Source of the DNA: Hydrogenophaga sp.
Lineage (GTDB): Bacteria > Pseudomonadota > Gammaproteobacteria > Burkholderiales > Burkholderiaceae_C
DNA: 64,000 nt
Assembly (NCBI RefSeq): GCF_019635465.1
Contig: NZ_JAHBZK010000002.1
Coordinates: 62,001-126,000 of the forward strand
Direction of reading: 5' to 3'
Shown here: positions 45 through 19,818 of the stretch, one piece after another
Numbering within the stretch: position 1 is the first letter of the stretch
Layout of the letters: the number at the start of each line of letters is the position of its first letter
Position numbers and translations under genes: made by a program
The notes under the pieces: generated by a model
Databases searched by the model: none
What the model was told of the DNA's origin: nothing
What the model saw: the letters and a program-made list of their open reading frames with translations, nothing else

Positions 45-3000
45 CTAGGTAGCCAGGTGCAAGGCCAGCCAGATCAGAACGAACTCGGGGCGTGAGACGG
101 CCTTGTCGCTGCACGCTTCAATGGGCTCGTCATTTCGTGTCGCCGGAACGATGGCGAGCCGATCTATTTGGTCCAGCAGCCGAGGCTGGCCCTTGATGCG
201 CACCTTGGCCACTTCAACCTGAAAGACAGGCTCTACGCGCTGGCTTGCAACACCAACGACCGCAGGGATCGCTTGCTTCTTCTTGCTACCTTGCGCGGGC
301 TTCGTGTCCTCGCTCTTCTCGTCCTTCACCTTCTTTGGCTTCTTTCCAGAGCGGTCGCGGCCAACGATGACCTTGAACCCGTGGGCTCTGGCCGCAGCAG
401 GCATAGTCAGCCCGTACCCGTCCGGTTCATAGACATCGACGTCATCTTTCGACCAACCGATGCAAGCGAGGAAGCGATTGATCTGAATGAGATGCTCATC
501 GCTGAAAACCAGAATCTGCCGAGCGTCAGCCACCTGATCGCACGGGTGCGACTCCGGCGTCCCGAGTGGTGCGCGAAAACCAACCAGTGCGTCAATCCGA
601 TTCCAGGAAGTTTGAGGGCGGTTCAGCACCAACCGCGCGTACTGCGAGCGCGGCTCGCGAGGGCGTGCCGCCTTTGCCTTACGCACCAGATCTGGCTTGC
701 GGGTAGGCTTGTGGGCCTGCAGCGCCGTAAAGGCCTCTTGCAAGCGCGCAGAGCTCAGCGGGGAAAGTCGAAGCTGCCAAGCGACCGTCTCAAGCTTGAC
801 CGCCCTGCCACAGAGCTTCATCGCATCGAGCGCTACTCTCGGCGTCAATTGCGCGTACACGGCGGCCGCGCGCGGCGGCGGGGCCAAAGGGTATGCGGGA
901 TCCGCATCACAGCGCTCGATATCGAACTTGCGCTCGGCAATCCGATGACGCACCTCGGCCTCAAACGCGCGCGGATTGGCCTTCTGGCAATGGACATTGG
1001 CCCAGTCGTGTAGGAGGTGCGTGTAGTGATGGAAGGTGGTTTGCGGGTGTGCGTGTCCAAGCGTCGCTGCCAGCGCCCATGCAGCGCGGCGGGTTGGCTT
1101 GTCGTGCTTCAAGAGTTGCAGGGAAGTCTGGCGTGCATCCCAAAGCTCGTCGAACGCGAAAGCGGGGTATGTGTCCAGCAATTCGGGAAAGATCAAGCGC
1201 AGTGCGAGCAGGTTGGCAAAAGAGTGCCGCGCGTGGTGGAAGGTCACGCTGTCATTGCTGCAAACGGCGCGCAGTGTGCTCACGATGCGTGTGCGATGAG
1301 GCTGCACCTGCGTCGGGATCTTGGGGTTGACCTCAGAGAAGAACAATGGGGCGTTTGGGTCCTTTGGAGCGAAAAGCTCCCAATGCTTGAGCCAACTTTC
1401 AACAATGAGCTGTTCATGATCAGAGAACGTACCCATCAGCGGAATCTGGCGCCGCCCAGCGAACGACTTGGTGCTTCGATGTCTGGCGCTGATCACCACG
1501 ACGCACGCGCCAGAGGTTGTCACCCAGTCCGAGCGAGCAAGCGAAATCGCCTCGGAAGCACGAAGACCGAATCGGTAGCCAAGCAACAGTACGAACGCAT
1601 CCAACGTTGCCTCGCGATCGAAGGTCACCGAGCGCGGGCACAGGCTCTGCAGCGCGAGGTGGTATTCCGTCGGTGTGATGACATGTGCGGAAACCATGGA
1701 ACCAGTCAGATCCGCACCCAAAGCCGACCAGTCCGGTGAGTCAACACCGTACTCCTTCTCGGCGAATCGATGAAAGTCCATCAAGCGCGCCAGGATGTAG
1801 CGCTGATTCTTCAGGCGCTGGGTCAATGGCTCCTTGTCGTTGGACCGCTTTGTGACATGTGGCCTTCGCAGGACGCGGTCATAGAACATCTCGATCTCAA
1901 TCTCGTCCGCGTTGAAGAGATCGAGCTCGCAGGAGTATTCGACGAAGCCAACGGAGAGCGCGTCCAAGTAGCGCAACACAGAGCGGGCTTTGAGCCATCT
2001 CCCGCTGGCGCGTTTGTTGCACAGCAGCTCCAGAATCCAGGCGACCAGGATCTGCGCAGCGCTGGAGCAGTCCTTGCCATGAATCTTCAGGGCTTCGCTG
2101 ATTTTCCCCGCAACGCTGGCGCGATGGCCGCTGATGACCTCGCTGGTGGGGCTCTTGTCTTTTGGGATCGCGACTTTGAACCCAGCGAACGCCTCTCGCA
2201 CTTTCCGCAGCAATGTCCGGGTGACTTCTTCGCTGCCGCGGCCGTCGTGGACATAGGGGTAGGAAAAATCGTAGGGCTCTTCTTGGTTCTCCTCCGTCGA
2301 GGCTTCGACGCCGGAGCTGTAAAGCTCCGCGACGTCTTCCGCAGGATCTTCATCCTCTTCTTCCTCGTCTTCGGGATCCTGGACGTCAGCGCTGGCCGCC
2401 ACGTCAGATAGCGGAGCAATGAGCCGACCGAACTGGACGCGGGCGAGCTCTTGTGCCGACAAGGACCATGATGGGAGGCGCGAACTTCTTGATGCTGCAG
2501 CGATTCCAGGAAGAACGATGGCGTTCTCACACTCGACCAGGTGCGCGATAGCCTCGATGGCCCTGACACGGTAGTCCCCGGTCGCTTTAACGCCAAGTTC
2601 GTTCAGGAATGGTGCGAGCAAACCCTTTGCCGCACTCGAATCACGACTCGATTGCTCCCCTTCCTTGAGCTTGAGCAATATCCCAAAGGACCGCTCGGGC
2701 AAGATGAACCACGCGAATGGAAGGCCATCGTCATCGGTCCGCTCGGGGTGAAATCCGATGTAAGCGACGTTCTTGCGGATGTGATAGCGAAGCCGGCCAC
2801 TGTTCTTCGAGGTCAAGCGAAGCAGAAAACGAGAGTCGGTGACACGTGCGCTGAGGCACAGATCGAATGCCAGCAGCAGCTCCTTGAGCGAGTGCGACAT
2901 CTTGGACGCGGGCGGCGCGCTCTTGAACGCTTCATCTAATGCGTTTCTCAGCTTGCCGAGTCGTTTGGTGATGCCAATGCAATCTTCATGAAAGGCGGGG

Positions 3001-5984
3001 CGCTCGAGCAGATGCTGGCGCGCCGCGAACTTCGAGCGCAAGCGCACACGGTAGCGTTCGTGAATTCGCTCGGCCAGCTCCTCATAGGCTTCATACCAGA
3101 TGGACGCGTTGGCGCGAGGCGTGTCCTTGTCGTTGAAGAGCATACGGCGACCGAGTTCGGTCCACCGCTCGGGATCGATGCTCTTGAGGAATTCGGCTCG
3201 GTCGAGGGGTAAAGCCTCTTCGTCCGACGCACCTTTCTCGGGCTTCCCGTCGGCAGCGTGTGCCAGCTTTGGGTCATCTGCCCACTCGGAGAGTCGCCGC
3301 AGCAGGTAGGTCCGGGCTTCCCGTAGCGCCTGGCGTCTCGTGTCCTGTCGCGCCCGCAGACGCTTTGCCGAGCCAAAATTTGACAAGAGGGCGACGCGCG
3401 CAACGGACGTGATGGGGATTCGAGTCTGACTCGATGTAAACGTCGGTGGTTCGATGCGCAGTGGCGCGATGGCGTTCGCTAGCTTCTCGCGCCATGGCGT
3501 CTCGTCCTGCTCCCAACAGCGAGTGGAGAAGTCACCATACGTGGCGGCGCCGGACTCGGTGTGGCCCAGTTGTGCCGCGACCAGTTCTTCATCCAGCCCG
3601 AACGAGCGCAGCCGAGTGGCCATCCGGTGTCGAAACAGGTTCCAGGGCAGTGGCCAGTCGAACAAGGCACCTTCCGCCAGCCCGCTTTCATCCACTTCTC
3701 GGATTTCGAGTGCGCCGTCGCGCACCTGGCGCAAGTGAAAGAAGTAGGGCAACGCGCAATCCGGCTTGCCCTGAAGTTGACCGTCGATGGCGTTGATTAA
3801 TGGCTGAAGGTGAATCTGCCCAGTCGAGCGCAAGCTTTCGAGCAGCGCGTACAGGTACGGGCGGTACAAGCCCTCGATTAACTTTTTGACCAGGCCTGGT
3901 AGCGGAACGAGCCTGCCCCAGCGATCCTGCTTGTGATTCGAGATGGCCTTGTCATCAACGAAGAGCCTGCCACGCTCAAGATCGAAGTCGGCAGCTCGCT
4001 CGAACACGGAGCTCACCGGGCGAGCGCCTGTGCATGCCAGCAAGACGACAACGCTGTAGGTGGTGATCTGGTTGTGCAGCTCTATCCAGCCGCCGGGACC
4101 GTTGCCCGCCATGACGTTTATCAGGCTGTCCTGCGCCTGGGAAAATGCCGCGCGCAGCCGCTCGTCGTCAGGATCGATGCCACTTCCCAGACCATTGTGG
4201 TCATCGCCTTGGGAAGGCGTGGTGACTACCCCGCCGGGTGCGATGCAGGCCATCGCCCGGTTGGCTTCTCCCAAGCTCCAGGATGCATACCATCCGGCGG
4301 CTGGTTTCACAGCGTGTGCCGGCACCAGCAGCATGCGAGCCATGACGGCGCTGTTCGTCTCATCGAAGACGACCTGCTCTGCCGTGTGACCCAGCAGACC
4401 TTGTGTAACGCGTTCCAGACCACGCGTCTTGGCGCACCGTTGGTTGAACGCAGTCCATGGAGCCGTTTCCTCTTCTTCGGTAGGCCACAACTTTCCAAGT
4501 GCAAGTGCATTGGGTTTGGCCGCTAACGCTTGCCGAAGCGGTACGACGAGCGCAGGTGAAAGGTCTAGGACCTGGACGTTGGCCAAGGGGCGGATCCAGC
4601 CTGGGTAGGGCTTGCGCAGTGGCGGTTCCTTCTCCGCCGCGATGGATCCCTCAGTGGGTTGGACGATGCGGCGCAACAATCGGGCGCCTTCGATGTCGAG
4701 CGTCCAGGCAGAAGTCGTGGCGTCGCTGCCGAGCACCATATTGGAGACTGTCTCGATCGAGCAGCGTGCAAGCAAGGCCAAATGTGCGAAGGCGCCAAGC
4801 AGAGCGTCCTCGGCGCTTCCTAGCAGTTCGGCCAGCAGCACGCGAAGTCCGTCGATTTCGTCGGGCCGCAGCCGATTCCATGCGTACGGTAGGAGATTTC
4901 GATCTGCTTGCGTCTGCAGCATGTGGCCTTTGCCGAGCCGGTATTGCAGTTCAGGCGGGACGGGCCGGTCGTACTCGGTGACCTCAATCCCTGTTGGCTC
5001 TTCATCGCCCGAATTCTCCAGATCGTCGGCCTTGGCGGAAACGATGGGGGCCCATGGGATTTCTACGTCGAGCGGCCCCAAATCGATGCGGGCCGGCAGG
5101 ACCGGTGGCTTTATGAGGTTGACCTCATGCGACCTGTTATCCAGGGGGATTGGGTCGCCAAGGTGGCCCGCAGCCAAGTCACGAATTCGCCGAAGTGTCT
5201 TTCTTTCAGTGGATTCACCTGCGCCGGATAGCTCTTTCAACTCGGCGATCTGGAGCTCCGCATCGTTCGCAAGCCCGGCGCAATAGCTCGAAAAGTCAGC
5301 GCTGAAGTTCGGCAGCTTTAGAAAGAGCGCGAGCTTTTCTGGATCATTTGCTTTGCTGTCGAGTGCCAAGCGCATCTGCGTTGACACGTCATTGATCACG
5401 GGGCCCGCCGCATATCGTTGTTCAGCTTGGGCGAGCGCTCGAATCAACAGCAGCACCCTTTGTGCTGCTAGCGCGAGCAACCCTGCTGGATTCCCAGCAA
5501 TGTCAGGCGCCGGGCAGGCCAACAAGAGGGCGAGGGGGCAGCTCTTGAGTTCTGCGTTGAAGGTCGCCTTGACCCGCCCTGCGACCTCCGGCTTTGGCAG
5601 AGGCGGGAATTGACGTTGCGCAGCGTGGCTGACCCTGAGCAGACGTCCTGCCTGATCGGAATGACCCTTCCAGGCGAGCAGTACAGCTTGCGTGTCCGCC
5701 TGCACAAGAAACTCAAAGGTGTGCGAAAAAAGTGCTCTTCTAGGCGAGCTGGTCGCTAGCCAGAGGTGGTGGGTGAGGGTCGGAACTCGATGCCGGAGTG
5801 CCCAGGCGTCGAGTTCGAAAACGGGCGGAGAGGTGATCAAGGGCGGGCCAAAAAGAGGGTTGTGGTCCCCTTCTGGTGCAGCGCCTGGGCGGCGCAAGTC
5901 CGCGGTAAGCGTCATGGCGTCCGCAAGGGTCCTCCTCGTGCGGGCGCCATTTCGGGGTTCACTTTCCGCCTTATCGGCACTCAA
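45..5984 (-). CDS. Giant protein with two tyrosine-recombinase cores
   Basis: A 1979-residue protein containing two catalytic-core-like regions of the tyrosine recombinase (phage integrase) family, which break and rejoin DNA through a Tyr-DNA bond. Core 1 (about residues 645-820) shows TGARPVS, then FRHRMATRL (the usual His of HxxR is Asn), then GHTESGAATYGDF with the Tyr. Core 2 (about 1465-1660) is complete: GLRASEA, FHHARHSF (HxxR), LGHAHPQTTFHHYTH. An acidic linker and Lys-rich C-terminal segments are visible. Most integrases are 300-500 residues, so this size is exceptional; it looks like a duplication or fusion within one reading frame. The start used is a TTG without a clear ribosome site; ATG at 5915 is an alternative. 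The role is probably mobilising an island. The recombinase call is firm; the number of active sites is inference. Confidence 0.8.
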   Translation of the reverse strand: MSADKAESEPRNGARTRRTLADAMTLTADLRRPGAAPEGDHNPLFGPPLITSPPVFELDAWALRHRVPTLTHHLWLATSSPRRALFSHTFEFLVQADTQAVLLAWKGHSDQAGRLLRVSHAAQRQFPPLPKPEVAGRVKATFNAELKSCPLALLLACPAPDIAGNPAGLLALAAQRVLLLIRALAQAEQRYAAGPVINDVSTQMRLALDSKANDPEKLALFLKLPNFSADFSSYCAGLANDAELQIAELKELSGAGESTERKTLRRIRDLAAGHLGDPIPLDNRSHEVNLIKPPVLPARIDLGPLDVEIPWAPIVSAKADDLENSGDEEPTGIEVTEYDRPVPPELQYRLGKGHMLQTQADRNLLPYAWNRLRPDEIDGLRVLLAELLGSAEDALLGAFAHLALLARCSIETVSNMVLGSDATTSAWTLDIEGARLLRRIVQPTEGSIAAEKEPPLRKPYPGWIRPLANVQVLDLSPALVVPLRQALAAKPNALALGKLWPTEEEETAPWTAFNQRCAKTRGLERVTQGLLGHTAEQVVFDETNSAVMARMLLVPAHAVKPAAGWYASWSLGEANRAMACIAPGGVVTTPSQGDDHNGLGSGIDPDDERLRAAFSQAQDSLINVMAGNGPGGWIELHNQITTYSVVVLLACTGARPVSSVFERAADFDLERGRLFVDDKAISNHKQDRWGRLVPLPGLVKKLIEGLYRPYLYALLESLRSTGQIHLQPLINAIDGQLQGKPDCALPYFFHLRQVRDGALEIREVDESGLAEGALFDWPLPWNLFRHRMATRLRSFGLDEELVAAQLGHTESGAATYGDFSTRCWEQDETPWREKLANAIAPLRIEPPTFTSSQTRIPITSVARVALLSNFGSAKRLRARQDTRRQALREARTYLLRRLSEWADDPKLAHAADGKPEKGASDEEALPLDRAEFLKSIDPERWTELGRRMLFNDKDTPRANASIWYEAYEELAERIHERYRVRLRSKFAARQHLLERPAFHEDCIGITKRLGKLRNALDEAFKSAPPASKMSHSLKELLLAFDLCLSARVTDSRFLLRLTSKNSGRLRYHIRKNVAYIGFHPERTDDDGLPFAWFILPERSFGILLKLKEGEQSSRDSSAAKGLLAPFLNELGVKATGDYRVRAIEAIAHLVECENAIVLPGIAAASRSSRLPSWSLSAQELARVQFGRLIAPLSDVAASADVQDPEDEEEEDEDPAEDVAELYSSGVEASTEENQEEPYDFSYPYVHDGRGSEEVTRTLLRKVREAFAGFKVAIPKDKSPTSEVISGHRASVAGKISEALKIHGKDCSSAAQILVAWILELLCNKRASGRWLKARSVLRYLDALSVGFVEYSCELDLFNADEIEIEMFYDRVLRRPHVTKRSNDKEPLTQRLKNQRYILARLMDFHRFAEKEYGVDSPDWSALGADLTGSMVSAHVITPTEYHLALQSLCPRSVTFDREATLDAFVLLLGYRFGLRASEAISLARSDWVTTSGACVVVISARHRSTKSFAGRRQIPLMGTFSDHEQLIVESWLKHWELFAPKDPNAPLFFSEVNPKIPTQVQPHRTRIVSTLRAVCSNDSVTFHHARHSFANLLALRLIFPELLDTYPAFAFDELWDARQTSLQLLKHDKPTRRAAWALAATLGHAHPQTTFHHYTHLLHDWANVHCQKANPRAFEAEVRHRIAERKFDIERCDADPAYPLAPPPRAAAVYAQLTPRVALDAMKLCGRAVKLETVAWQLRLSPLSSARLQEAFTALQAHKPTRKPDLVRKAKAARPREPRSQYARLVLNRPQTSWNRIDALVGFRAPLGTPESHPCDQVADARQILVFSDEHLIQINRFLACIGWSKDDVDVYEPDGYGLTMPAAARAHGFKVIVGRDRSGKKPKKVKDEKSEDTKPAQGSKKKQAIPAVVGVASQRVEPVFQVEVAKVRIKGQPRLLDQIDRLAIVPATRNDEPIEACSDKAVSRPEFVLIWLALHLAT

Positions 5985-6835: not shown

Positions 6836-7054
6836 CTAGTTCGATCCCAGCAGTCCTAGATGCTTGCGATAGATGTCCGCAAGCTCCTGTTCTTCCCTCT
6901 CGCCTTCCTTCGAGTCATCAATGTCCGAAGAATCCGTGAACTCCAGTCGCGGGTTCTCCTTGATGAAATCATCTACGATGGCATTGACTTCCGCCAACAT
7001 TCGCTCGTTGGCTTGGCTAGCCGGCGTTGCCTTCGTCTTCCTTGCTCTTTTCAT
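6836..7054 (-). CDS. Small acidic protein, last gene of the sigma/Ntn operon
   Basis: A 72-residue protein starting MKRARKTK, with a basic N-terminus followed by a strongly acidic, helical stretch (DSSDIDDSKEGEREEQEL). The start at 7054 is preceded by AAAGGAG and lies inside the end of the Ntn-hydrolase-like gene (38-bp overlap), so the two are probably translationally coupled. I recognise no family. A small acidic partner encoded beside a protease-like protein could be an adaptor, inhibitor or substrate tag, but this is a guess from context only. Confidence 0.55.
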   Translation of the reverse strand: MKRARKTKATPASQANERMLAEVNAIVDDFIKENPRLEFTDSSDIDDSKEGEREEQELADIYRKHLGLLGSN

Positions 7055-8369
7055 CAATCGGTTCTCCTTTCGCAGACTTGGCGGGACGATTCCTGAAGAA
7101 ATGTTCGTTGAACTCGGGTTGGAAGTAGTGCTTTCGATCGATCCAGACAAAGCCATCACCTTTCGAAATCACTGCCACGTCGATTGGCCCACCGACAGTC
7201 TCATCTTCCCCGGTCGTCATGCGTTTCTGAAACGAGCTCAAAGTCACAAGGGAAGCCGCCACGTGCGCAAGCTCCTTTTTCGGCAGATGCACGACCGACT
7301 GGAGGATCGGCATTCTGTGGTTTCGCTCTTTGAACCCCGAGAACTCCTCGATTGCACTCTTCGCAGCCTTCACGGACACAGCGCTCAATTGAGCCTTGTA
7401 GGCTTCCTTCCTGACTTTGGAGACGCCAGGGAACCCGTCAATGATGGCCTCGGGCGTCTGTACGTATGCTTTCGCAAGTGCCCGGACCACCTGAATCTCA
7501 ACCTTTGGACTGATGCCCTCCAAGAAGGTCTGGGCCATAGAGGATTGTGCAAATGGCTTGATCACGGACGTTTTGTCCTTGCTGATCTCCCAGGTCTCCA
7601 CGAGCTTGTGTTTCAGTTCGCCCTCGAAAACCCCACCAATCTCGTACTGCTGCATGACTGGGAAGTGCTCGGCTTCCCCGTATCCGGCAATGACCAATCC
7701 TGTCAAGGACTCCATGACAATCTCGTCCTTCTGGACAACCAGCTTGGCCAGCTCGTACAAGTCGGGCGTCAGCTTGTGCAGAACTGCGGGCTTCAACCCT
7801 TCGAAGACCTTCATCGTCAAGCCGGAGATTAAACCCGACTGCTTGGACTTCAAATCAGTCGCCACGTCCTTCTTGAAGCAAGCAGCCTCTTTCTTGGCTT
7901 TCCACTCCTTCAAAGCATTTGTCACCACAGCGGTGGGAATGGCTTCTAGGTCCTGTTGGGTAATGCCTTCCCCGTTGTTGACCAAGGCGTCGAATCGCTT
8001 CTTGATGCCATGCGCAATCCCAGTGAAGAACGTGCCGATGAGAAGCTTGTAGTAGTGCTCCTGCACGTCGAGCGGAAACAGCTGAAGGTTGTCAGTCAGG
8101 AAGGCAATGAGATCGGCTGCGTAGCCCTTCAGATGTGGGAAACTTTTTTCGCCGAGCTTGGCGCGGTACATCTTGAAGATGACCTCCCACGGAACACCCA
8201 AGAGCGAAGAGTTGTTGTAGACCATCACGCCGACGGGATGAAAGCTCGAAAGCATGAACAGCTTGTCTGCGTGAAAGAACTTCGCCTTGCCATTGGAACG
8301 CACGGTCGCCGCGCTGTCGCTGGCTAGCGCGATCCCGAGCCGGTTCATTACCACCACTTCTGCCGTCAC
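7017..8369 (-). CDS. Proteasome-like Ntn-hydrolase family protein
   Basis: A 450-residue protein that begins GTG-Thr behind a strong GGGAGGG site, so Met removal would expose Thr as residue 1. Counting from that Thr, Asp falls at position 17 (LASDSAAT) and Lys at 35 (ADKLF), close to the Thr1/Asp17/Lys33 catalytic set of proteasome beta subunits and HslV. The segment VGVMVYNNSSLLGVPWEVI and the later VGGPIDVAVISKGDGFVWI match the strand pattern of that fold. Unlike proteasome subunits it is twice as long, with a helical middle of about 250 residues. It sits in an operon with a sigma-like factor, divergent from Ubl/E2/E1 genes, suggesting a proteolytic or amidohydrolase role linked to conjugation. 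The fold assignment is by eye; no ATPase partner is adjacent. Confidence 0.65.
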   Translation of the reverse strand: MTAEVVVMNRLGIALASDSAATVRSNGKAKFFHADKLFMLSSFHPVGVMVYNNSSLLGVPWEVIFKMYRAKLGEKSFPHLKGYAADLIAFLTDNLQLFPLDVQEHYYKLLIGTFFTGIAHGIKKRFDALVNNGEGITQQDLEAIPTAVVTNALKEWKAKKEAACFKKDVATDLKSKQSGLISGLTMKVFEGLKPAVLHKLTPDLYELAKLVVQKDEIVMESLTGLVIAGYGEAEHFPVMQQYEIGGVFEGELKHKLVETWEISKDKTSVIKPFAQSSMAQTFLEGISPKVEIQVVRALAKAYVQTPEAIIDGFPGVSKVRKEAYKAQLSAVSVKAAKSAIEEFSGFKERNHRMPILQSVVHLPKKELAHVAASLVTLSSFQKRMTTGEDETVGGPIDVAVISKGDGFVWIDRKHYFQPEFNEHFFRNRPAKSAKGEPIDEKSKEDEGNAG

Positions 8370-8404
8370 GTTATTCCCTCCCAGCGGCCGACAGGCCTTG
8401 ACCT

Positions 8405-8782
8405 CTATTTTCTTTGCTGCTTGTTCGAGATGATGCGCGCGATGTCATCAATAAGAGAGTCAAAGTCAGACTGACGAGAGTCATCTCCCTCAAACGCAGC
8501 CGCCCCCTGCAACCCCACATCAGACGGCGGGTTGAGCAAGGCCCGCAACTCGCGCAGCTTGACGGCCGGGGTCGCCCGAGATCTGCTGAGCCGTGCCATC
8601 TGGGGCTTGGCCTCCAAGTTCGCCCGCGCAGTGCTGGCCGCCAAGACCAGTCGCATCGACTTCGCGAGATCGGCTCGTTCCATAGCGGGCATGGCGTGCG
8701 GGGACTGAGCTGCCAAGACTAGGTCTTCCAGACCATCTAGCAGGCCTTCGAGCTGCTGCGCGGCGTTTAGCTTCCTACTCAT
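8405..8782 (-). CDS. Small helical protein coupled to the sigma-like factor
   Basis: A 125-residue predicted helical protein beginning MSRKLNAAQQLEGLL. Its start overlaps the end of the sigma-like gene by 8 bp, and it ends 35 bp before the Ntn-hydrolase-like gene. No known family is recognised. The position directly after a sigma-like factor would suit an anti-sigma factor or cofactor, but there is no membrane segment or zinc motif to support that. An upstream in-frame start at 8842 exists but would overlap the sigma gene much further. Confidence 0.6.
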   Translation of the reverse strand: MSRKLNAAQQLEGLLDGLEDLVLAAQSPHAMPAMERADLAKSMRLVLAASTARANLEAKPQMARLSRSRATPAVKLRELRALLNPPSDVGLQGAAAFEGDDSRQSDFDSLIDDIARIISNKQQRK

Positions 8783-9350
8783 CGCTTGTCCTTCCAAACT
8801 TACGCGCCAAGGTGCGCTGGATCCGCTTTTGGGCGCTCGCATACTGCACTGGGTTCATTCCTGCGCGCGCCTGTGTTTCGGTGGGTGTTAGCCCTTCAGC
8901 CAGTCCATGGATCACATGCAAGGCTTGAGGGTCAGCGGAGAACAGCGCTTCCACTTGCCGGATGGCTTGACGGGCCGCCAACTCCGTTTCCAGTGTCTGC
9001 TCGCCGGCCACAGTTTCTACGGCGCTGGGCCCCTCGTCATCGGCCCCAATCGCAGCCTGCTCAATCGGTTCGTTGGCGGTTCGAGCGCGTACCTCGCTGG
9101 CAATGCTGCGCATGGTCTGTGCTAGGAAGGCGACCAAACTGACGCTTAGTGGCCAAAGGCGTGCTCCGGCCAGCGCTCGGTAAAGCGCTTCGTGCAGCAG
9201 ATCTTCCCAGCTCATGGAGGGCAGGCCGAGCGCGCGCAGCTTGGCAATCTGTCGCAAGGACTGTTGCTCACCAGGAGACAACATGGAGAAGGCCTCCGCC
9301 ACCTGATGGGGGGAGGCCACTTCTCTTGGCTGCGGTGCAAAGCTGGTCAT
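8775..9350 (-). CDS. Sigma-70-like transcription factor
   Basis: A 191-residue protein with the outline of a small sigma-70 family factor. Region-2-like sequence lies at residues 40-90 (SWEDLLHEALYRALAGARLWP, then FLAQTMRSIASEVRAR). Region-4-like helix-turn-helix sequence lies at 140-185 (LHVIHGLAEGLTPTETQARAGM). It would direct RNA polymerase to selected promoters. It is the first gene of the minus-strand operon ending at 6836 and diverges from the Ubl gene across a 138-bp interval, so it may control one or both operons. No conserved promoter pair for it could be identified by eye. Confidence 0.6.
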   Translation of the reverse strand: MTSFAPQPREVASPHQVAEAFSMLSPGEQQSLRQIAKLRALGLPSMSWEDLLHEALYRALAGARLWPLSVSLVAFLAQTMRSIASEVRARTANEPIEQAAIGADDEGPSAVETVAGEQTLETELAARQAIRQVEALFSADPQALHVIHGLAEGLTPTETQARAGMNPVQYASAQKRIQRTLARKFGRTSDE

Positions 9351-9488
9351 CTCAAGAATGTATGCGCGCCCGCAAGCGGGTTGCGGACATGTCCCTCACA
9401 AAAGATTTCTGTCTGGTTAGGGTGTGCTGGTGCGCATATCTAGTTGAGCGGCCAATCACCGCGAACCCAGAAAGGCAATAGGTACACC
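9351..9488. promoter_or_regulatory. Divergent promoter region of the Ubl and sigma/Ntn operons
   Basis: A 138-bp interval separates the starts of the sigma-like gene and the Ubl gene. Promoters for both operons should lie here. I could not pick out a convincing -35/-10 pair, which would be consistent with recognition by the encoded sigma-like factor. Confidence 0.4.
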
Positions 9489-9764
9489 ATGACAGCTGAA
9501 AACACTTCCGCCGCTAAGGACTCGGACCGTAAGCAGGTCTACAAAATTACGATCGACAAGGTGCATTTTGATGTGCTCCAACCCTTGATCTCCGGCGCCG
9601 CCTTGCTGCAGCTTGCAGGAAAGGTGCCGGTAGATCAGTTTGGTGTCTATATCAAGCGCAAGGGCGCCCAGCCCGAGCGAATCGGCTTGGACGAGGACGT
9701 TGACCTACGCGAGCCGGGCGTAGAGCACTTCGTCACTTTGCCCCTAGATCAGACGGAGGGTTGA
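9489..9764 (+). CDS. Ubiquitin-like protein (multiubiquitin-type domain)
   Basis: A 91-residue single-domain protein. KQVYKITIDKVHFDVLQPLISGAAL followed by PVDQFGVYIKRKG and FVTLPLDQTEG follows the pattern of the bacterial multiubiquitin family: a beta-grasp domain with a short lysine-containing loop. It ends in Gly (TEG), so the C-terminus is already exposed and would need no trimming before activation by the E1 encoded two genes downstream. It is the first gene of a tight operon (3 bp to E2). It should be the conjugated modifier; the target is unknown. The start at 9489 is chosen because the domain begins soon after it and AGG lies just upstream. Confidence 0.85.
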   Translation: MTAENTSAAKDSDRKQVYKITIDKVHFDVLQPLISGAALLQLAGKVPVDQFGVYIKRKGAQPERIGLDEDVDLREPGVEHFVTLPLDQTEG

Positions 9765-9767
9765 GGC

Positions 9768-10166
9768 ATGCGCAGGGAGTTCTCGCTGCCGGCGGAGGAT
9801 ATGGAGTGGCTCGACGGCTGCGGCTACGCCTATGACCTAGCCGAAGAGGCCAACGTTCTGCGTGTAGTCCTACACAACTTTCCAGTGCCCGCCGGCTACA
9901 ACGTCTCGACCGTTGATGTCAATGTGCGGATCGAGCCGGGCTACCCCGACGCCCAGATCGACATGGCCTACTTCTTACCGGCACTGACACTTCAAAGCGG
10001 GCGCGCGATCCGCGCGACCAGTTCGGACAGCTTCGCCGGCCAGGAGTGGCAGCGCTGGAGTCGGCACCGCACGCCTTCGAACCCTTGGCGTCCCGGCATC
10101 GACGGCTTGGGCACCCATTTCGCGCTTGTCCAGGAATGGCTGGCGCAGGAGCTCAAGAAGGTCTGA
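9768..10166 (+). CDS. E2-like conjugating enzyme (prokaryotic E2 family E)
   Basis: A 132-residue protein with the signature of prokaryotic E2 family E: EPGYPDAQIDMAYFLPAL, then EWQRWSRHR and NPWRPGIDGL. These enzymes are expected to accept the Ubl from the E1 and pass it to a target. The only cysteine is Cys18 (DGCGY), outside the position where canonical E2s carry theirs, so either chemistry is non-canonical or a Ser/Tyr/His-assisted step is used. Encoded 3 bp after the Ubl and 2 bp before the E1. Family assignment is confident; mechanism is inference. Confidence 0.85.
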   Translation: MRREFSLPAEDMEWLDGCGYAYDLAEEANVLRVVLHNFPVPAGYNVSTVDVNVRIEPGYPDAQIDMAYFLPALTLQSGRAIRATSSDSFAGQEWQRWSRHRTPSNPWRPGIDGLGTHFALVQEWLAQELKKV

Positions 10167-10168
10167 AC

Positions 10169-11566
10169 ATGAACATGGGCATGTCGTTGACGTTGGCGCA
10201 GTTCCAATTCGAGGAGTTGGCCTCTCACCTTTTTCCGCCAGACGGCTGTGAAGCCGTCGCTATCGTGTTGTGTGGGCGCGCAGAGTCTGCCTACGGTCAT
10301 AGGCTGGTAGCGCGCAAGGTCGTGCTTGTGCCCTACAGCCAATGTAGCGTCCGCAGACCCGACCGTGTGACGTGGTCCACAGCAATTCTGCTGCCGCTGC
10401 TGGCAGAAGCGAACAAGCACAACATGTCGCTCGTGAAGATCCACGGACACCGGGGTTTTGATCAATTCTCTGCGATCGATGATGAGTCCGATCGCGAATT
10501 GTTCTCCAGCATCTATGGCTGGATGGATCAGGACCAGCCCCATGGCAGTGTGGTGATGATGGACGATGGCCGCTGTTTCGGCCGTGTCGTGGCGCCCGAT
10601 GGCAGCTTCGAGGCACTGGCGAGAGTGACTGTCGTAGGAGACGATATCCGAGTGTTCGATGCGCCACGTGCAAATCAGGGCGTTCCGGAGCAAGGTCACA
10701 GGATAGCGCAGACCTTCGGTAAGGGCACCTACGAAAAGTTAGCTCACTTGCGCGTCGGCGTTGTGGGGTGCTCGGGAACGGGAAGCCCGGTTATCGAGCA
10801 ACTAGCACGCAACTGCGTTGGTTCGCTGGTTTTGGTCGACCCTGACGTCGTCGAGCGCAAAAACCTTAACCGGATCCTGAATTCAACGATGGCCGACGTC
10901 GCCGCTCGGCTGCCCAAAGTCGAACTCGCCCGGCGAACTATCTCTCAGCTGGATATGGGCACAGAGGTGCTGGCATTCCAGAGCACCCTATTCAACCGCG
11001 AGGCGGCGCGAGCGCTGGCGAGTTGCGACGTCCTCTTCGGCTGTATGGACTCAGTAGACGGCCGGTTTGCGCTGAACAAGCTAGCCTCGTTTTACGCCAT
11101 TCCCTACTTCGACCTGGGGGTGCGCATCGACGCCGACGGGGCCGGTGGTGTCGACCAAGTGTGCGGTACGGTTCACTACATCCAGCCTGGCGGATCGAGC
11201 CTGCTGAGCCGCCACCTATTCACCATGGAGCAGGTCCGCGTCGCTGGGCTGTATCGAACGGATCCCGGCGAATACAGCAAGCTCCTGGGCGAGGGCTATA
11301 TCAAGGGCGTCAATGAAGATCAGCCAGCTGTTATTCAGTTGAACATGCTGATTGCGAGCCTGGCGATCAACGAGTTCCTGGCGCGACTGCACCCTTACCG
11401 TATTGAAGCCAACGGAGACACTGCGGTTTTTCGAGTCAGTCTGTCGCATGGCATATTCGCGGGCGAGCCGGACGGCCTACCTTGTCCGGTTTTCAAGCGC
11501 CACGTGGGCAAAGGAGACGTCGAACCCATGCTCGACATGCCCGAACTTAGCGTCGGAGAGAGATGA
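10169..11566 (+). CDS. JAB peptidase - E1 (ThiF) fusion
   Basis: A 465-residue fusion. Residues 1-150 form a JAB/MPN metalloprotease-like domain: HGHRGFDQFSAIDDESD near residue 92 gives His-x-His...Ser..Asp, one residue shorter than the usual JAMM spacing. Such domains remove Ubl modifiers. Residues 190-430 are an E1/ThiF adenylation domain: GVVGCSGTGSP (nucleotide loop), VDPDVVERKNLNR, and CMDSVDGR. It would adenylate the C-terminal Gly of the Ubl. The segment where related E1s often carry Cys reads PGGSSLLSR, with Ser in those positions. It overlaps the next gene by 4 bp. Activation and removal in one chain imply a reversible system. Confidence 0.88.
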   Translation: MNMGMSLTLAQFQFEELASHLFPPDGCEAVAIVLCGRAESAYGHRLVARKVVLVPYSQCSVRRPDRVTWSTAILLPLLAEANKHNMSLVKIHGHRGFDQFSAIDDESDRELFSSIYGWMDQDQPHGSVVMMDDGRCFGRVVAPDGSFEALARVTVVGDDIRVFDAPRANQGVPEQGHRIAQTFGKGTYEKLAHLRVGVVGCSGTGSPVIEQLARNCVGSLVLVDPDVVERKNLNRILNSTMADVAARLPKVELARRTISQLDMGTEVLAFQSTLFNREAARALASCDVLFGCMDSVDGRFALNKLASFYAIPYFDLGVRIDADGAGGVDQVCGTVHYIQPGGSSLLSRHLFTMEQVRVAGLYRTDPGEYSKLLGEGYIKGVNEDQPAVIQLNMLIASLAINEFLARLHPYRIEANGDTAVFRVSLSHGIFAGEPDGLPCPVFKRHVGKGDVEPMLDMPELSVGER

Positions 11567-11910
11567 TGATTTGGGGTCGTCTCGCGCGTGCCTTCAGGCT
11601 GGTACTTGACCCGCGCCTGAAGTACGTTTACGAGTGGGCTGAGGATCCGCCGCCTGTGACCCGTCCCGGCTTCGTCTACTTGATCGGGGACCAACCGAAA
11701 CCTTGGTCCGCGCAGTTCATCTGTCCTTGTGGATGCGGTGACGTCATCACGCTTAGTTTGATCGAGAACGATAACCCGAGATGGCGGCACGCCATCCACC
11801 CGCTGGGTTCGATTTCTTTGTGGCCGTCTGTTTGGCGGACAAAGGGCTGTCGCAGTCACTTCTACATCAGAAACGGAAAGGTGCTATGGGCCTATCCAGA
11901 TGACTCGTAG
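11563..11910 (+). CDS. DUF6527 protein of Ubl-conjugation operons
   Basis: A 115-residue protein that overlaps the E1 stop codon (ATGA). It contains CPCGCGD, then SISLWPSVWR and GCRSHFYIR, a pattern of conserved Cys and His matching DUF6527 proteins, which I know as frequent last genes of E1/E2/multiubiquitin operons. The Cys/His set could bind zinc or form an active site; which one is not decidable from sequence alone. Co-translation with the E1 supports a direct role in the pathway, such as release, targeting or structural scaffolding. Confidence 0.75.
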   Translation: MMIWGRLARAFRLVLDPRLKYVYEWAEDPPPVTRPGFVYLIGDQPKPWSAQFICPCGCGDVITLSLIENDNPRWRHAIHPLGSISLWPSVWRTKGCRSHFYIRNGKVLWAYPDDS

Positions 11911-14761: not shown

Positions 14762-16051
14762 TTAGGCGTGTGCAGCAGGACCGTCAACGTCTGAGTGAAC
14801 AAACGCGACGGCGTTTGCCCTCTTGGCGAGCAAGTGCGGACCGTCGAACTTCAACAGTGGTCCAAGCTCATCGAAAGAAAATTCAGCGCTCCATGAGCCT
14901 GCGGCATAGCCACCCAGTGTGTAGGGGGGAAAGTACACGCTGATGCCGGTCGCGCTGAGTGAGAAGTGGAGGTAGGTCGACCATTCGGGAGGGAACGATC
15001 GTGCAATCTCCTCGCGATCGTCAGCGCTTGGCGGGGTTTCGAACCGCGCTTCCCACTCCTTCTCAATCTTCTGAATACAGAGCTCTGTTAAGTGCTGACA
15101 GGCCGAATATGGATCAGAGAAGAAGTCCTCCAACCGCAACTTCACTAGACCATCGTCCTTTGCAACGAAGTTGTGCGTGGTCGCGCCCTGAAATCCATGC
15201 GCGGCGCCAGCGAAGTATCCGAACTCGTAACGGATCATGCTGATGATCGACTCGCCAACAAGCACCGGCTCTAAAGAGAAGCTGAAGGAGCTTGCAGCGA
15301 ATTCACTATCGGTACCGACCCAATGCTTGAACCGCTCTGGATCCTGCTCCAACTTCGTTCGCCGTGCTTCAAGGAGGCAATCGAAGCGCATTGCGGTCAC
15401 GTACTCGTTCAACTCAAGAGCGATATTCGAAAGTGTGGATGACTCAAAGTGCGGGAAACGAAGCTCGAGCGAATAGCCGGGTAGTCCAGACCACTCAAGA
15501 ACTTCTTTGCGTGGGTAGACCAAAAATGGTCCCAAGGGCAAACCGTCATTGACGGCAATCTCGCGTTGCTGCGCTGCCAACGAGAGTGACTCGACCACCT
15601 TGTGCCATTCGTTTGGAAGTCTGATGTACTGAAGCACTTGAGAAATTTGGTGCGGGACTTCGCACTCCTCAAGCATCAATGGAATCACACCGATGTCGCC
15701 GGGTAGAAGTGACTTCAACCGCTCCAGTGCATCGTGGATCTCCCGCTGAACGTAGCCGCGTTTGCGAACGCTTCGTGGCGTCATGAAGATGAGAACTACA
15801 TCAGACGAATAAAAGGCGCGCTGAATTTCTTCATCCCAGCGCTGGCCTGGCAGCAGCTTCCTGTCGATCCAGGGCTCATGCCCAAGCGCCCTGAGTTTTT
15901 CAAAGTAAGGCAGGACAAGCGCCCTGTCCTCCGATGCGTGGTTCAGAAATACCTTGAGCACGTTCGCTTTCTTGGCGGATGCTTGACCGCTGTGGTGTGG
16001 TGTAGTGAATGGGTCGCCGGGGACATTAGGACCTCCCTCCACATTGAGCAT
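14762..16051 (-). CDS. TIR domain - DUF3298-like protein
   Basis: A 429-residue protein. The N-terminal TIR domain shows VFLNHASEDRALVLPYFEKL, then GHEPWIDRKLLPGQRWDEEI and VVLIFMTPRSVRKRGYVQRE, including the Glu expected at the NAD-binding site. The C-terminal half (residues 190-420) contains FGYFAGAAHGFQGATTHNF and later TLGGYAAGSWSAEFSFDEL, the RsiV/DUF3298-like pattern. Bacterial TIR domains often cleave NAD+ in antiphage systems; DUF3298-like domains bind wall or periplasmic ligands in other proteins, and here may sense a trigger. No signal peptide. The start is uncertain: ATG 16051 has GGGGGGAA upstream, and GTG 16075 is an alternative. Confidence 0.75.
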   Translation of the reverse strand: MLNVEGGPNVPGDPFTTPHHSGQASAKKANVLKVFLNHASEDRALVLPYFEKLRALGHEPWIDRKLLPGQRWDEEIQRAFYSSDVVLIFMTPRSVRKRGYVQREIHDALERLKSLLPGDIGVIPLMLEECEVPHQISQVLQYIRLPNEWHKVVESLSLAAQQREIAVNDGLPLGPFLVYPRKEVLEWSGLPGYSLELRFPHFESSTLSNIALELNEYVTAMRFDCLLEARRTKLEQDPERFKHWVGTDSEFAASSFSFSLEPVLVGESIISMIRYEFGYFAGAAHGFQGATTHNFVAKDDGLVKLRLEDFFSDPYSACQHLTELCIQKIEKEWEARFETPPSADDREEIARSFPPEWSTYLHFSLSATGISVYFPPYTLGGYAAGSWSAEFSFDELGPLLKFDGPHLLAKRANAVAFVHSDVDGPAAHA

Positions 16052-16357
16052 CCGGTTCCCCCCGGTTGATTCCACCGTGGGCGGCGATCCTCTGTTCGCG
16101 AAGTATGACCGGCGGCAACCGCTGCGAAAGGGAAGCCTGGTCAGACGAGGCCGCCCCGAAAACTGACGTCGAACATTCGCCCATGGCGTGTGAGTGAACG
16201 TGCACGCCGGTCACCAGTCCGACGACGTCGGACCTAGCCCGTATGCAACGCGGACTGCATGGAGTCACTGGAATGTGCCCTTCCGCGTATCGAACGTTGC
16301 GCTGCGCACTACTGCCTACGCCCTCCGAGCCATCAGACGCCTTCAGGCGACTATGAG

Positions 16358-17434
16358 CTAGTAGACCACGGGACCGAAATGCCCCACGTAGCCGATCTGG
16401 GTGAGGACTAATCGATTGATGCAATGCACACTCACCGACCGTTTCTCGATTGGGCGCCCGAAGAGTGCGAAGTTCGGAATCGTGAAGGTGCGGCCGTACT
16501 CCTCAGCCTGAGGATGAAATCGACGCAGCGAAAGCCCGTAGGCAGTTTCGAAGGGACGCCCGCCCGTGCGGATCAAGCTGAAAAACGAGGGATAGATTAC
16601 TCCATCGAAGCCTGCATCCCTCGCTGACAACGCAATCGCGCGGGAGATCTCGTAGGAGTGAGAGCGTGCAAGGAACAGCATGTGAATCGCCATGTCCAAG
16701 CTTTCGAACTCCGTCACATCCTCCTTGAGAACGTGCGTCAGATCCAACAACCTCATATCCCGCTGCGGCTTCAGCGTCGCGACGAAGATCTCATCCTCGG
16801 CGGTTGCTCGGCACTCGTGAATGCAGATATCGATGTCCTGCGAGCCGTACAGAACGGGGAAGCTGACTGAGTCAAGCCGCCCTTTGCCTGCCAGTTCAGT
16901 TGGCGGGCTGTCGTACTCACTGGGGTCTGCAGGTTGTCGAGGTCCGACACGGAGGCGATAAAAGGCGGAGCCCTTCGCTAGCGTCTTCTCAGGATACTCT
17001 CTCAAAACGCGCGCGATGACCTGAAGACGCTTTGCCGGATCTTCAAGATCCCTTAGAGGCTCGACTTCTCCTACCATCCAGAGACGGGGCCCGTAGTGGA
17101 AGAACCCGATCTTCGCTGCGTCCTCGATCAGCTTGATGTCACCCTTCAACCATTGCGATGGGGAGATGTCGCTCCTGCCATAGTGGTACTCGTTGAACTG
17201 GATGACCGGAGCGCCGCCATATGGTCCCCGAATTGTCGTGCCACTCACAAAGAAGCGCCAAGCTAGAGCTTCAATGTGATTCTTGGTGAGCTTCCGGCCA
17301 TTCGGACTCTTGCAGTTTGGGCAATCGCCCTCCTTCTCAAGGCCGTGCTTATAAGCGTCGATACGGAGACCCTCATCCACAAAGCAGTCTGAGCAGAGAA
17401 GATGGGGACCGCTGTCGTTGCTAGTCGTCGTCAT
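16358..17434 (-). CDS. RES-domain protein with zinc-ribbon N-terminus
   Basis: A 358-residue protein. Residues 10-45 carry CSDCF...CPNCKS, the zinc-ribbon part of the HEPN/RES N-terminal domain. The RES domain lies in the second half: FYRLRVG, then GRLDSVSFPVLYGSQDIDICIHEC, with the Arg, Tyr, Ser and Glu typical of RES NAD+ phosphorylases or ADP-ribosyl-type toxins. It probably depletes NAD+. Start at 17434 (MTTTSNDSG) rather than 17515, whose first 27 residues look non-coding. The XRE gene 210 bp upstream is not the usual Xre/MbcA antitoxin, so no cognate antitoxin is evident. Confidence 0.7.
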   Translation of the reverse strand: MTTTSNDSGPHLLCSDCFVDEGLRIDAYKHGLEKEGDCPNCKSPNGRKLTKNHIEALAWRFFVSGTTIRGPYGGAPVIQFNEYHYGRSDISPSQWLKGDIKLIEDAAKIGFFHYGPRLWMVGEVEPLRDLEDPAKRLQVIARVLREYPEKTLAKGSAFYRLRVGPRQPADPSEYDSPPTELAGKGRLDSVSFPVLYGSQDIDICIHECRATAEDEIFVATLKPQRDMRLLDLTHVLKEDVTEFESLDMAIHMLFLARSHSYEISRAIALSARDAGFDGVIYPSFFSLIRTGGRPFETAYGLSLRRFHPQAEEYGRTFTIPNFALFGRPIEKRSVSVHCINRLVLTQIGYVGHFGPVVY

Positions 17435-17644
17435 CTCGAGAATCGGCGATGCCCGCGGCGTTGAGGTTTGAGAGGTAGCGCATTGCCCCACGCTGATTCT
17501 CAGCGCGGGCGGCAACGAAAGACTGCCTTGTACCAGTCAGCACACATACCGGTTTGCGCCGCGATTGGCTGCAATCGCTGCTCAACTGCCCCTCGAGCTG
17601 GACAAGAATCGCGAGCTACTACGCCACTTCCGGTGGGACCAGAC

Positions 17645-18014: not shown

Positions 18015-18275
18015 ATGCAAGTCCCTATCGCGGCCGGGCCGCATCAGACCTACCTAACGACCGACGAGTTGTCGGCGCTGATCAAGTACGACAGCCGAAC
18101 GATCCGCGATCGGCTGAAGGACAGCGTGCTCATCGAAGGGCGGCACTACATCCGCCCCTTTGGTGGCCGCAAGACGCTCTACATCTGGGAGCACATCCAG
18201 GAGGACATGGCGCGCCACTCGCGGGTGATGAGCTCCGGCATCCCCATGAGCAGCGGAGGTGCGCTCCGTGGGTAG
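18015..18275 (+). CDS. Excisionase-like DNA-binding protein
   Basis: An 86-residue protein with a clear AAAGGAG site. TYLTTDELSALIKYDSRTIRDRLKDSVL and HYIRPFGGRKTLYIWEHI resemble the winged helix-turn-helix of small excisionase/MerR-type proteins encoded before integrases. Its last codons overlap the start of the integrase gene, so the two are coupled. It probably bends DNA and biases the integrase towards excision, or acts as a transcription factor for the operon. Confidence 0.65.
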   Translation: MQVPIAAGPHQTYLTTDELSALIKYDSRTIRDRLKDSVLIEGRHYIRPFGGRKTLYIWEHIQEDMARHSRVMSSGIPMSSGGALRG

Positions 18276-19818
18276 TATTCGCCGCCGCCCTGAGTCCGGG
18301 CTTCTGTTTCTGGACTTCAAGTATCTCGGCCAGCGTCTGCGCGAGCAGACCGCATTGCCAGATACCGAGACCAACCGCAAGCGCCTTCAAAAGGCCCTCG
18401 AGCGCATCGAAGGCGAAATCGCCCTCGGCACGTTCGACTACGAAAAAACCTTCGGCAAGCCACTTCCCACCAAGCCTGGTGAAGGGATCGCCGAAGCTTC
18501 GATCAACGACGCTGCAAGCATTCAGCCCACCACGCGCACCGGCACGCCCTTGTTCAAGGACTTCGCCGACATGTGGTTCGCCGAGTGTGAAGTGTCCTGG
18601 CGCCGCAGCTACCGCGTCACGCAACGGGGATCGCTGGACCAGTACCTGATCCCGTACTTCGGGGACAAAGAGGTCGGCTGCATCACCAAGGCAGACGTTC
18701 TGGCTTTTCGGGCAACGCTCGCCAAAGTACCCGCCCGCAAAGCTTCTTCCACGCTGTCCAACCGCCGCATCAACTCCGTGATGAAGCCGCTGCGGCAGAT
18801 CCTCAACGAGGCGGCCGACCGTCTGGAGTTCACTTCAGCGTTCCGCAACATCAAGCCGCTGAAGATGAAGCGCAGCGACGTCATGCCCTTCACGCTCGAG
18901 GAGGTCCAGCAGATCCTCACGACCGTGCGGGCGGACTTTCGGAGTTACTTCACCGTGCGCTTCTTCACCGGCATGCGCACCGGAGAGGTCCACGGTCTCA
19001 AGTGGAAGTACGTCGACTTCGAGCGTCGCCTGATCCTGGTTCGCGAGGCCATCGTGATGAAGGAAGAGGATGAGCTCAAGACCGACGGCAGTGTGCGCGA
19101 CATCCAGATGACCGATCTGGTGTTCGACGCCTTGCAGGCGCAGTTCAAGGCCACCGGAAAACTCTCCGAGTTCGTCTTCTGCAACCGCAAGGGTGAGCCG
19201 ATCGACAACCAGAATTTTCTGAATCGGGTCTGGTCACCGCTGCTGCGCCACCTGCAGCTGCCGCACCGTCGCGCTTACCAGATGCGCCACACGGCGGCGA
19301 CGCTGTGGCTCGCGGCAGGCGAGGCGCCGGAGTGGATCGCGCGCCAGCTCGGCCACACCAGCACCGAGATGCTGTTTCGGGTGTACAGCCGCTATGTGCC
19401 CAACCTGACGCGCCGCGACGGCTCGGCCATGGAGCGCCTACTGAAGCAGCACATCTCGGTCGCGCCGGTGCAAGGCCTGGTGGTGCGTTTGCCGGAAGAG
19501 GGCGCCATGCTGCCTGGCACCAGTCAGTCCGGCGCACGTGCAGCCTCATCTGATACAGCCTCATCTGATGCCGCCGTCAACGACGCGCTTGATCCCACAA
19601 CGCTCCAGGTCGATTCGGGTGCGCCGCTGCAGGCGGTAGAGGCGAGCACGGCGGCAGTCAACGACGCGCAGGCGTTTGAGGTGTTGCCTGCACCGCGGCG
19701 TCGAAAGGATGCGGCGGGAACCAGCGCGAAGAAACGGGTCGGCGGGGGACAAGCCGATGCCGAGATCGCGGCGCTGTTCAAGCCCCCGCCCGAGCCACCG
19801 TTCCTGAGGCAGGGATGA
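18268..19818 (+). CDS. Tyrosine-type site-specific integrase
   Basis: A 516-residue integrase. The N-terminal arm-binding part begins GSIRRRPESGLLFLDFKYLG (DUF3596-like). A SAM-like core-binding domain follows at about residues 95-200. The catalytic domain carries FTGMRTGEVHGLKW (Arg), a Lys-containing turn, HRRAYQMRHTAATLWL (here HxxR reads YQMR, with the second His present), LGHTSTEMLFRVYSRY (His and Tyr). About 130 residues of low-complexity tail follow the Tyr. GTG 18268 is preferred because GGAGG precedes it. This is the integrase of the middle insertion, and its excisionase-like partner is directly upstream. Confidence 0.85.
   Translation: MGSIRRRPESGLLFLDFKYLGQRLREQTALPDTETNRKRLQKALERIEGEIALGTFDYEKTFGKPLPTKPGEGIAEASINDAASIQPTTRTGTPLFKDFADMWFAECEVSWRRSYRVTQRGSLDQYLIPYFGDKEVGCITKADVLAFRATLAKVPARKASSTLSNRRINSVMKPLRQILNEAADRLEFTSAFRNIKPLKMKRSDVMPFTLEEVQQILTTVRADFRSYFTVRFFTGMRTGEVHGLKWKYVDFERRLILVREAIVMKEEDELKTDGSVRDIQMTDLVFDALQAQFKATGKLSEFVFCNRKGEPIDNQNFLNRVWSPLLRHLQLPHRRAYQMRHTAATLWLAAGEAPEWIARQLGHTSTEMLFRVYSRYVPNLTRRDGSAMERLLKQHISVAPVQGLVVRLPEEGAMLPGTSQSGARAASSDTASSDAAVNDALDPTTLQVDSGAPLQAVEASTAAVNDAQAFEVLPAPRRRKDAAGTSAKKRVGGGQADAEIAALFKPPPEPPFLRQG

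Follow-up and report, generated by a model that had tools for sequence, protein, structure and literature searches.

Switches that combine an extracytoplasmic function (ECF) sigma factor, an anti-sigma factor and regulated proteolysis are a known type of bacterial control. A second type accompanies the bacterial ubiquitination-like (Bub) operons (Gong 2025; Ye 2026, both as cited in PMC13373217). According to the available part of the citing paper, CapW or CapH+CapP is associated with 219 of 544 Bub operons, CapP being a protease that is activated by single-stranded DNA and cleaves the repressor CapH (PMC13373217). Here we describe a locus that shares features with both, at positions 6,836 to 11,910 of a 64,000-nucleotide stretch of Hydrogenophaga sp. 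(contig NZ_JAHBZK010000002.1, positions 62,001 to 126,000; hereafter the window). In this locus, an operon for conjugation of a ubiquitin-like protein (Ubl) diverges from an operon for a sigma-like factor, a small protein that we call mid, a proteasome-like N-terminal nucleophile (Ntn) hydrolase and a further small protein.

Judged by its layout, the locus seems to use the proteasome relative in a switch for the tagging genes, and not as a destroyer of tagged proteins. We hold with moderate confidence that the minus-strand operon is the controller of the divergent Bub-type operon, with the Ntn protein as a signal-dependent protease.

A Bub-type operon divergent from a sigma-Ntn operon

The features of the locus are as follows (window coordinates, with E-values of profile matches).

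8775..9350, minus strand: ECF-like sigma factor, on the basis of profile matches of its relatives
8405..8782, minus strand: small protein mid, a putative anti-sigma factor; the gene overlaps the sigma gene by 8 nucleotides
7017..8369, minus strand: proteasome-like Ntn hydrolase, 450 amino acids, GTG start, two helical insertions, PMI-4-like
6836..7054, minus strand: small protein of 72 amino acids, directly 3' of the Ntn gene
9489..9764, plus strand: Ubl (Pfam Multi_ubiq, 1.6e-17)
9768..10166, plus strand: E2 (Pfam Prok-E2_E, 6.9e-36)
10169..11566, plus strand: fusion of a JAMM (JAB) domain with E1 (Pfam ThiF, 7.1e-28)
11563..11910, plus strand: DUF6527 (Pfam, 8.5e-21)
9361..9389, minus strand: candidate sigma promoter of the sigma operon, TGTCCG-N17-CGCATA
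9410..9438, plus strand: candidate sigma promoter of the Ubl operon, TGTCTG-N17-CGCATA

The eight open reading frames (ORFs), their overlaps and the two operons are all present as a first-pass annotation of the window had laid them out, and the start region shared by the divergent operons is exactly 138 bp (9351-9488), as it had stated. None of the sigma-like, mid and Ntn-like proteins of the window matches a Pfam or NCBIfam family above the curated cut-off. The full divergent layout, sigma-small gene-Ntn on one side and Ubl-E2-E1-DUF6527 on the other, is found in 11 further loci (L003, L020-L027, L040 and L046), while L032 has sigma-mid-Ntn at a contig end. Because this seven-gene arrangement recurs in 12 loci, the window being one of them, the layout is not due to chance; the linkage is real and is kept within one clade. 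The 13 sigma-linked Ntn proteins form this clade with support of 100/99 (bootstrap not fully settled) in a tree of 84 rows, which omits L001, L008, L010, L011, L041, L045, L062, L064, L089 and L091 as well as rows with an in-frame stop and loci without listed coordinates.

The Pfam matches to all four plus-strand genes, together with invariant JAMM residues, bear out the assignment of these genes to Ubl conjugation. The neighbouring Ubl, E2 and E1 genes with DUF6527 are the gene set of the Bub-type operon on an Enterobacter roggenkampii plasmid (L115); unlike Bub operons as the available part of PMC13373217 describes them, the window operon adjoins a sigma-mid-Ntn-small operon. Within the E1 proteins, the N-terminal JAMM residues E28, H92, H94, S101 and D104 are invariant in 12/12 aligned rows, as are five cysteine columns, with one further column lost in L021, L027 and L040; DUF6527 keeps CxCxC and CxxH in 12/12. 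E2 has no conserved cysteine in the 12-row survey (the best column reaches 6/12), which makes a standard thioester cascade doubtful for the E2s of this clade. Bub enzymes have been reported to work differently from that cascade.

The window Ubl ends in ...FVTLPLDQTEG, and TEG is invariant in the clade. Directly behind TEG, Ubl is fused in frame to E2 in 8 of the 12 loci (the window counted among them); the Ubl gene ends at TEG in the window, L020 and L022, and two residues later in L021. Such fusions could point to the Ntn protein as a Ubl-processing enzyme or ligase, for example one that cuts the Ubl-E2 fusion after TEG, and a proteasome homologue that is a protein ligase exists in connectase (PMC8665760, from the available text). 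We consider this role very improbable, however, as Bub-type operons in which no Ntn match is seen (L112, L113 and L115) have Ubl-E2 fusions too, the window Ubl stops at TEG so that no cut is required, and E1 already carries a JAMM domain. On the Enterobacter plasmid, of type IncHI2A, the Bub-type operon of L115 adjoins the gamma-mobile-trio genes gmtX/gmtY.

Mirrored candidate promoters and the sigma-mid pair

The sigma-like factor proposed by the first-pass annotation is supported through its relatives. The sigma70-ECF profile TIGR02937 matches 9 of 13 rows (best 6.8e-10) and Sigma70_r2 matches 5 of 13 (best 0.0046), both with E-values no higher than 1. The window row itself matches neither profile, so that the assignment of 8775-9350 to the ECF/sigma70 family rests on these relatives, which probably place it there. 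A small gene stands at the mid position in 12/12 relatives, with 17-21% identity to the window mid. The arrangement resembles ECF sigma/anti-sigma switches in having a sigma gene followed by a small overlapping gene and an apparently autoregulated promoter; it differs from them in that a proteasome homologue would act as the protease of the release step and the anti-sigma role of mid is putative.

The intergenic regions of the clade carry a promoter-like motif in both directions, flanking an A/T-rich stretch. The motif TGTCCG-N17-CGCATA was defined by eye on these regions, with each half of a pair scored out of 12. A mirrored pair is present in 11 of the 12 regions, always with 17-bp spacers, and none of 300 dinucleotide shuffles per region reached both scores in any region. 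Pairs with each half at 9/12 or better lie in the gap of 11/12 clade loci; 149 control loci that lack a sigma gene (2.08 Mb) contain six pairs, all 9+9. In the genome of the window (3.9 Mb, 88% complete) TGTCYG-N16-18-CGCATA has two matches only, both at the locus. A strict double-motif pattern had no match in 369 genomes of the class or in viral contigs; it misses the window's own genome too, because the right-hand site there reads TGTCTG.

Since the motif came from the clade, loci read after it was fixed are a better test. Mirrored pairs are found in L217 (11+12), L219 (12+12) and L237 (12+11), and in L238 with 16-bp spacers. L216 has one exact site 5' of the sigma gene, a position at which L217 also has the exact motif, and L111 carries the motif twice with an altered -10 box; no clear pair was seen at L110, L112, L218 and L220-L223. 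The step in which the sigma factor would drive these promoters is thus well supported by sequence.

From gene order, promoter pair, fold and catalytic residues, and from the exchange of proteases between loci described below, we infer an anti-sigma role for mid and its cleavage by the Ntn protein. The sigma factor would transcribe both operons from the mirrored TGTCYG-N17-CGCATA promoters and, by driving its own gene, would close a positive loop. Mid, whose gene is coupled to the sigma gene, would keep the sigma factor inactive. On a signal of infection or damage, the Ntn protease would inactivate mid, and the freed sigma factor would switch on the tagging operon.

Exchange of proteases in other sigma cassettes

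Beyond the clade, the analysis covered thirteen sigma loci (L110, L111, L112, L216-L223, L237 and L238), with 8 read of the 34 plasmid records that have sigma matches. Five of the thirteen (L111, L112, L219, L237 and L238) have a gene for an M78 (ImmA/IrrE) protease behind the sigma gene and a small gene, as judged by Pfam M78 in L111 (1.8e-5), L219 (1.7e-13), L237 (2.3e-16) and L238 (2.5e-16) and by record annotation in L112. PADLOC assigns those of L237 (7.2e-60) and L238 (1.7e-62) to capP. On the Roseivivax plasmid L237, the neighbour is an operon of the cyclic-oligonucleotide-based antiphage signalling system (CBASS), with cyclase (3.1e-121), E2 (1.1e-88) and SAVED endonuclease (2.5e-143), and the cassette next to it resembles a controller made of sigma, mid and CapP, with a mirrored pair of promoters. 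A Beta_protein gene (2.1e-33) neighbours L238, and Bub-type operons adjoin L111 (downstream) and L112 (divergent), while L219 has two small uncharacterised genes beside it.

That M78/CapP proteases can stand where the window has its Ntn gene, next to other immune operons, is a pointer to a protease with a regulatory role. Because its slot carries a CapP-type ImmA/IrrE metalloprotease in some other cassettes, the Ntn protein is most likely a signal-dependent protease that would inactivate mid. CapP cleaving CapH (PMC13373217, in the part available) is the known precedent for this release step. The CapH+CapP controller, as that text describes it, likewise sets a regulator and a protease gene beside an immune or Bub operon; it differs in that sigma and mid here replace CapH and a proteasome-like Ntn protein replaces the M78 metalloprotease. 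No M78-profile match was found in the clade loci searched and no Pfam M78 match among the scanned window proteins, and the place of CapH is taken by the sigma-like protein, which in the window matches no helix-turn-helix (HTH) family. These cassettes suggest that immune operons, with CBASS, Beta_protein and Bub-type operons as the cases seen, may have a kind of controller that is built on a sigma factor and in which one protease can replace another. A search of open-licence PubMed Central literature, with preprints and most subscription papers outside its scope, found no published account of a sigma-CapP controller or of an Ntn-Bub link.

For mid across cassettes, hhalign gives a probability of 89, and profile matches have E-values of 6e-6 for L216 and 1.2e-4 for L217. 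These two loci are sigma-mid pairs in which no protease was found; the neighbour is a methyltransferase-like ORF, judged by eye, in L216 and a mad2-like fragment (9.8e-13) in L217.

Several observations weigh against a sigma-controlled switch released by the Ntn protein. At 8 of the 13 sigma loci from outside the clade, the profiles detected no gene of either protease type (M78 or Ntn), so that a protease cannot be an obligatory member of the cassette. Most Ntn loci lack sigma and mid by profile search, so mid is not a general substrate of the Ntn family. The AlphaFold2 model of mid is poor (predicted local distance difference test score, pLDDT, 54.7), mid likeness across cassettes is weak (single-target hmmsearch 6.1e-8 to 7.6e-6 for L219, L237 and L238), and the small genes of L110, L111 and L112 are not shown to be mid. 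As to the promoters, the clade was the very material from which the motif was picked by eye; in L040 the site on the Ubl side has no mirrored partner; the upstream regions of L110, L112 and L218 are without the motif; at the 9+9 threshold, 32 pairs arose in 240 mononucleotide shuffles of clade loci; and an extra 9+9 pair lies inside the E1 gene of the window. Finally, a second Ntn-Bub association with a different layout, on the Rhizobium plasmids L007, L009 and L010, combines an HTH module with an Ntn gene that lies outside the controller operon and shows no match to sigma; this linkage needs another explanation.

The Rhizobium loci also carry a Clp-like protease gene by record annotation, the copy in L007 matching SDH_protease (3.5e-14) and standing after DUF6527. 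L007 further encodes a 205-residue protein with a weak PD-T4-9_A likeness (6.6e-7).

The Ntn protein, its family and the tagging genes

The Ntn fold given to 7017-8369 by the first-pass annotation agrees with its AlphaFold2 model (pLDDT 89.1, predicted template modelling score 0.85), which has a proteasome beta fold and matches 20S beta subunits and Anbu. T2, D18 and K36 (1, 17 and 35 without the initiator Met) are present in 52/52 rows and K30 in 51/52, in an alignment (A2) of the window with 51 of 80 genome loci picked for diversity and intact ends. Removal of Met would expose Thr2 in the window protein; the residues then correspond to Thr1, Asp17 and Lys33 of the proteasome, K30 and K36 both being candidates for the counterpart of Lys33. 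The model has helical insertions at residues 100-213 and 288-360. Matches of the Ntn profile to Cullin-3 (E about 1e-3) cover the helical insertion only and are treated as compositional.

Proteasome homologues of this kind were described by Fuchs, Alva and Lupas (2021, PMC8665760), so that, by the available text of that study, the protein family is not new. In that text, PMI-4 is a proteasome homolog with multiple insertions, the long insertions after H1/H2 and between H3/H4 are assigned to PMI-3 and PMI-4, and phage occurrence among the PMI types is given for PMI-4 only. Both insertions, as described there, are found in the window model, and we therefore infer that the window protein is PMI-4-like, a placement that follows structural pattern and distribution. 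The two share the proteasome fold, the Thr1/Asp17/Lys residues, both insertions and a family spread over bacteria, archaea and phages; the difference is that here one clade has a fixed genomic link to sigma and mid genes and to a Ubl operon. As the same text reports no function-suggesting genomic context for PMI-4, a large orphan family of proteasome homologues gains a context that predicts function and substrate (mid or sigma).

The genome scan found 488 Ntn relatives, and the best 80 were analysed with E1, E2, Ubl, DUF6527 and sigma profiles built from the clade. Ntn homologues are found mostly apart from Ubl genes, an outcome that the first-pass annotation had named as refuting its reading: E1 and E2 occur together in the flanks of 10 of these 80 loci, or 10/55 of those with at least 4.5 kb upstream and 7/33 of those with at least 5 kb on both sides. 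The corresponding counts are 0/80 for viral, 0/8 for phage (8 of 13 records read) and 4/9 for plasmid loci (9 of 10 records read; H8, near H7, left out). The Ntn family is thus mostly Ubl-independent. Of the tagging system with its own proteolytic enzyme and sigma factor proposed by that annotation, the linkage stands at the level of the clade; an enzyme fed by tagging is not borne out in the form proposed.

The compact analogue of the ubiquitin-proteasome pathway put forward there, in which the Ntn protein degrades proteins tagged by the divergent operon, accordingly seems unlikely to us. It would fit the proteasome fold with conserved T1, D17 and a Lys, the layout fixed in 12 loci, and the sigma-type promoters, which would co-express both operons. 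It would also fit the fact that Ntn is associated with Bub genes twice, in the proteobacterial clade and again in Rhizobium, at separate places in the tree (the two Rhizobium Ntn proteins present there fall outside the sigma-linked clade). Most Ntn relatives, however, lack Ubl genes and most E1 relatives lack an Ntn gene; on plasmids, E1 relatives (E up to 1e-20) occur in 122 records and Ntn relatives in 10. In samples of 398 genomes across the phylum, 9 have Prok-E2_E and 10 have a member of the Ntn family, the window's own genome being the sole overlap. CapP-type proteases occupy the same position in other cassettes, and no unfoldase was noticed in the locus, though no search was aimed at one. 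A Ubl system whose dedicated proteasome homologue destroys tagged proteins, with both co-induced by one sigma factor, we rate slightly lower still. Either outcome would be informative, giving a proteasome relative as sensor protease or a bacterial tagging-plus-proteasome pathway.

Ntn genes without Ubl or sigma genes occur in phages, satellite phages, plasmids, bacteria and archaea, and this breadth is what would be expected if the Ntn gene and its small neighbour were an autonomous cargo (defence- or toxin-antitoxin-like) captured under the sigma promoter and acting on neither sigma nor tagged proteins. A conserved partner of about 60 amino acids, widely encoded behind the Ntn gene (34 seed rows), is in line with such a cargo; its profile scores above the best of 2600 shuffles in 14 of 52 other loci. 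We nevertheless consider this, too, improbable, since the order sigma-mid-Ntn is maintained by one clade in a diverse range of proteobacteria and CapP stands in the same slot elsewhere. The controller reading remains the one we prefer.

The 72-residue window protein (6836-7054) has no detectable homology to the profile of this partner of about 60 residues (score -1.0). An ORF within the size limit for small proteins takes the last place in 9 of 11 clade loci, L003 and L026 being the exceptions; the count of 85 loci with some ORF behind Ntn arises by selection. In the streptococcal satellite phages L013, L014, L016 and L019, the Ntn gene lies in the last part of the genome, resembling a cargo position, with a gene of 55-58 codons directly 3' of it in L013, L014 and L019. 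An XRE antitoxin-like regulator 5' of the Ntn gene in these satellites was judged by eye to be no partner of Ntn, and the upstream neighbours of other Ntn loci have few shared clusters. In L002, the Ntn gene and its small gene (1471-2775) adjoin what we take, from the look of the sequences, to be hscB, iscA and iscU, and L084 has an hscB-like neighbour as well.

Elsewhere in the window, a giant protein of 1979 amino acids near the locus (45-5984, minus strand) matches Phage_integrase at residues 1458-1593 only and is tyrosine-recombinase-like. A gene at 14762-16075 (minus strand) encodes a TIR_2 domain followed by DUF3298 and is a possible further defence gene near the locus; close to it lie genes for a RES-domain protein (16358-17515) and an integrase (18259-19818).

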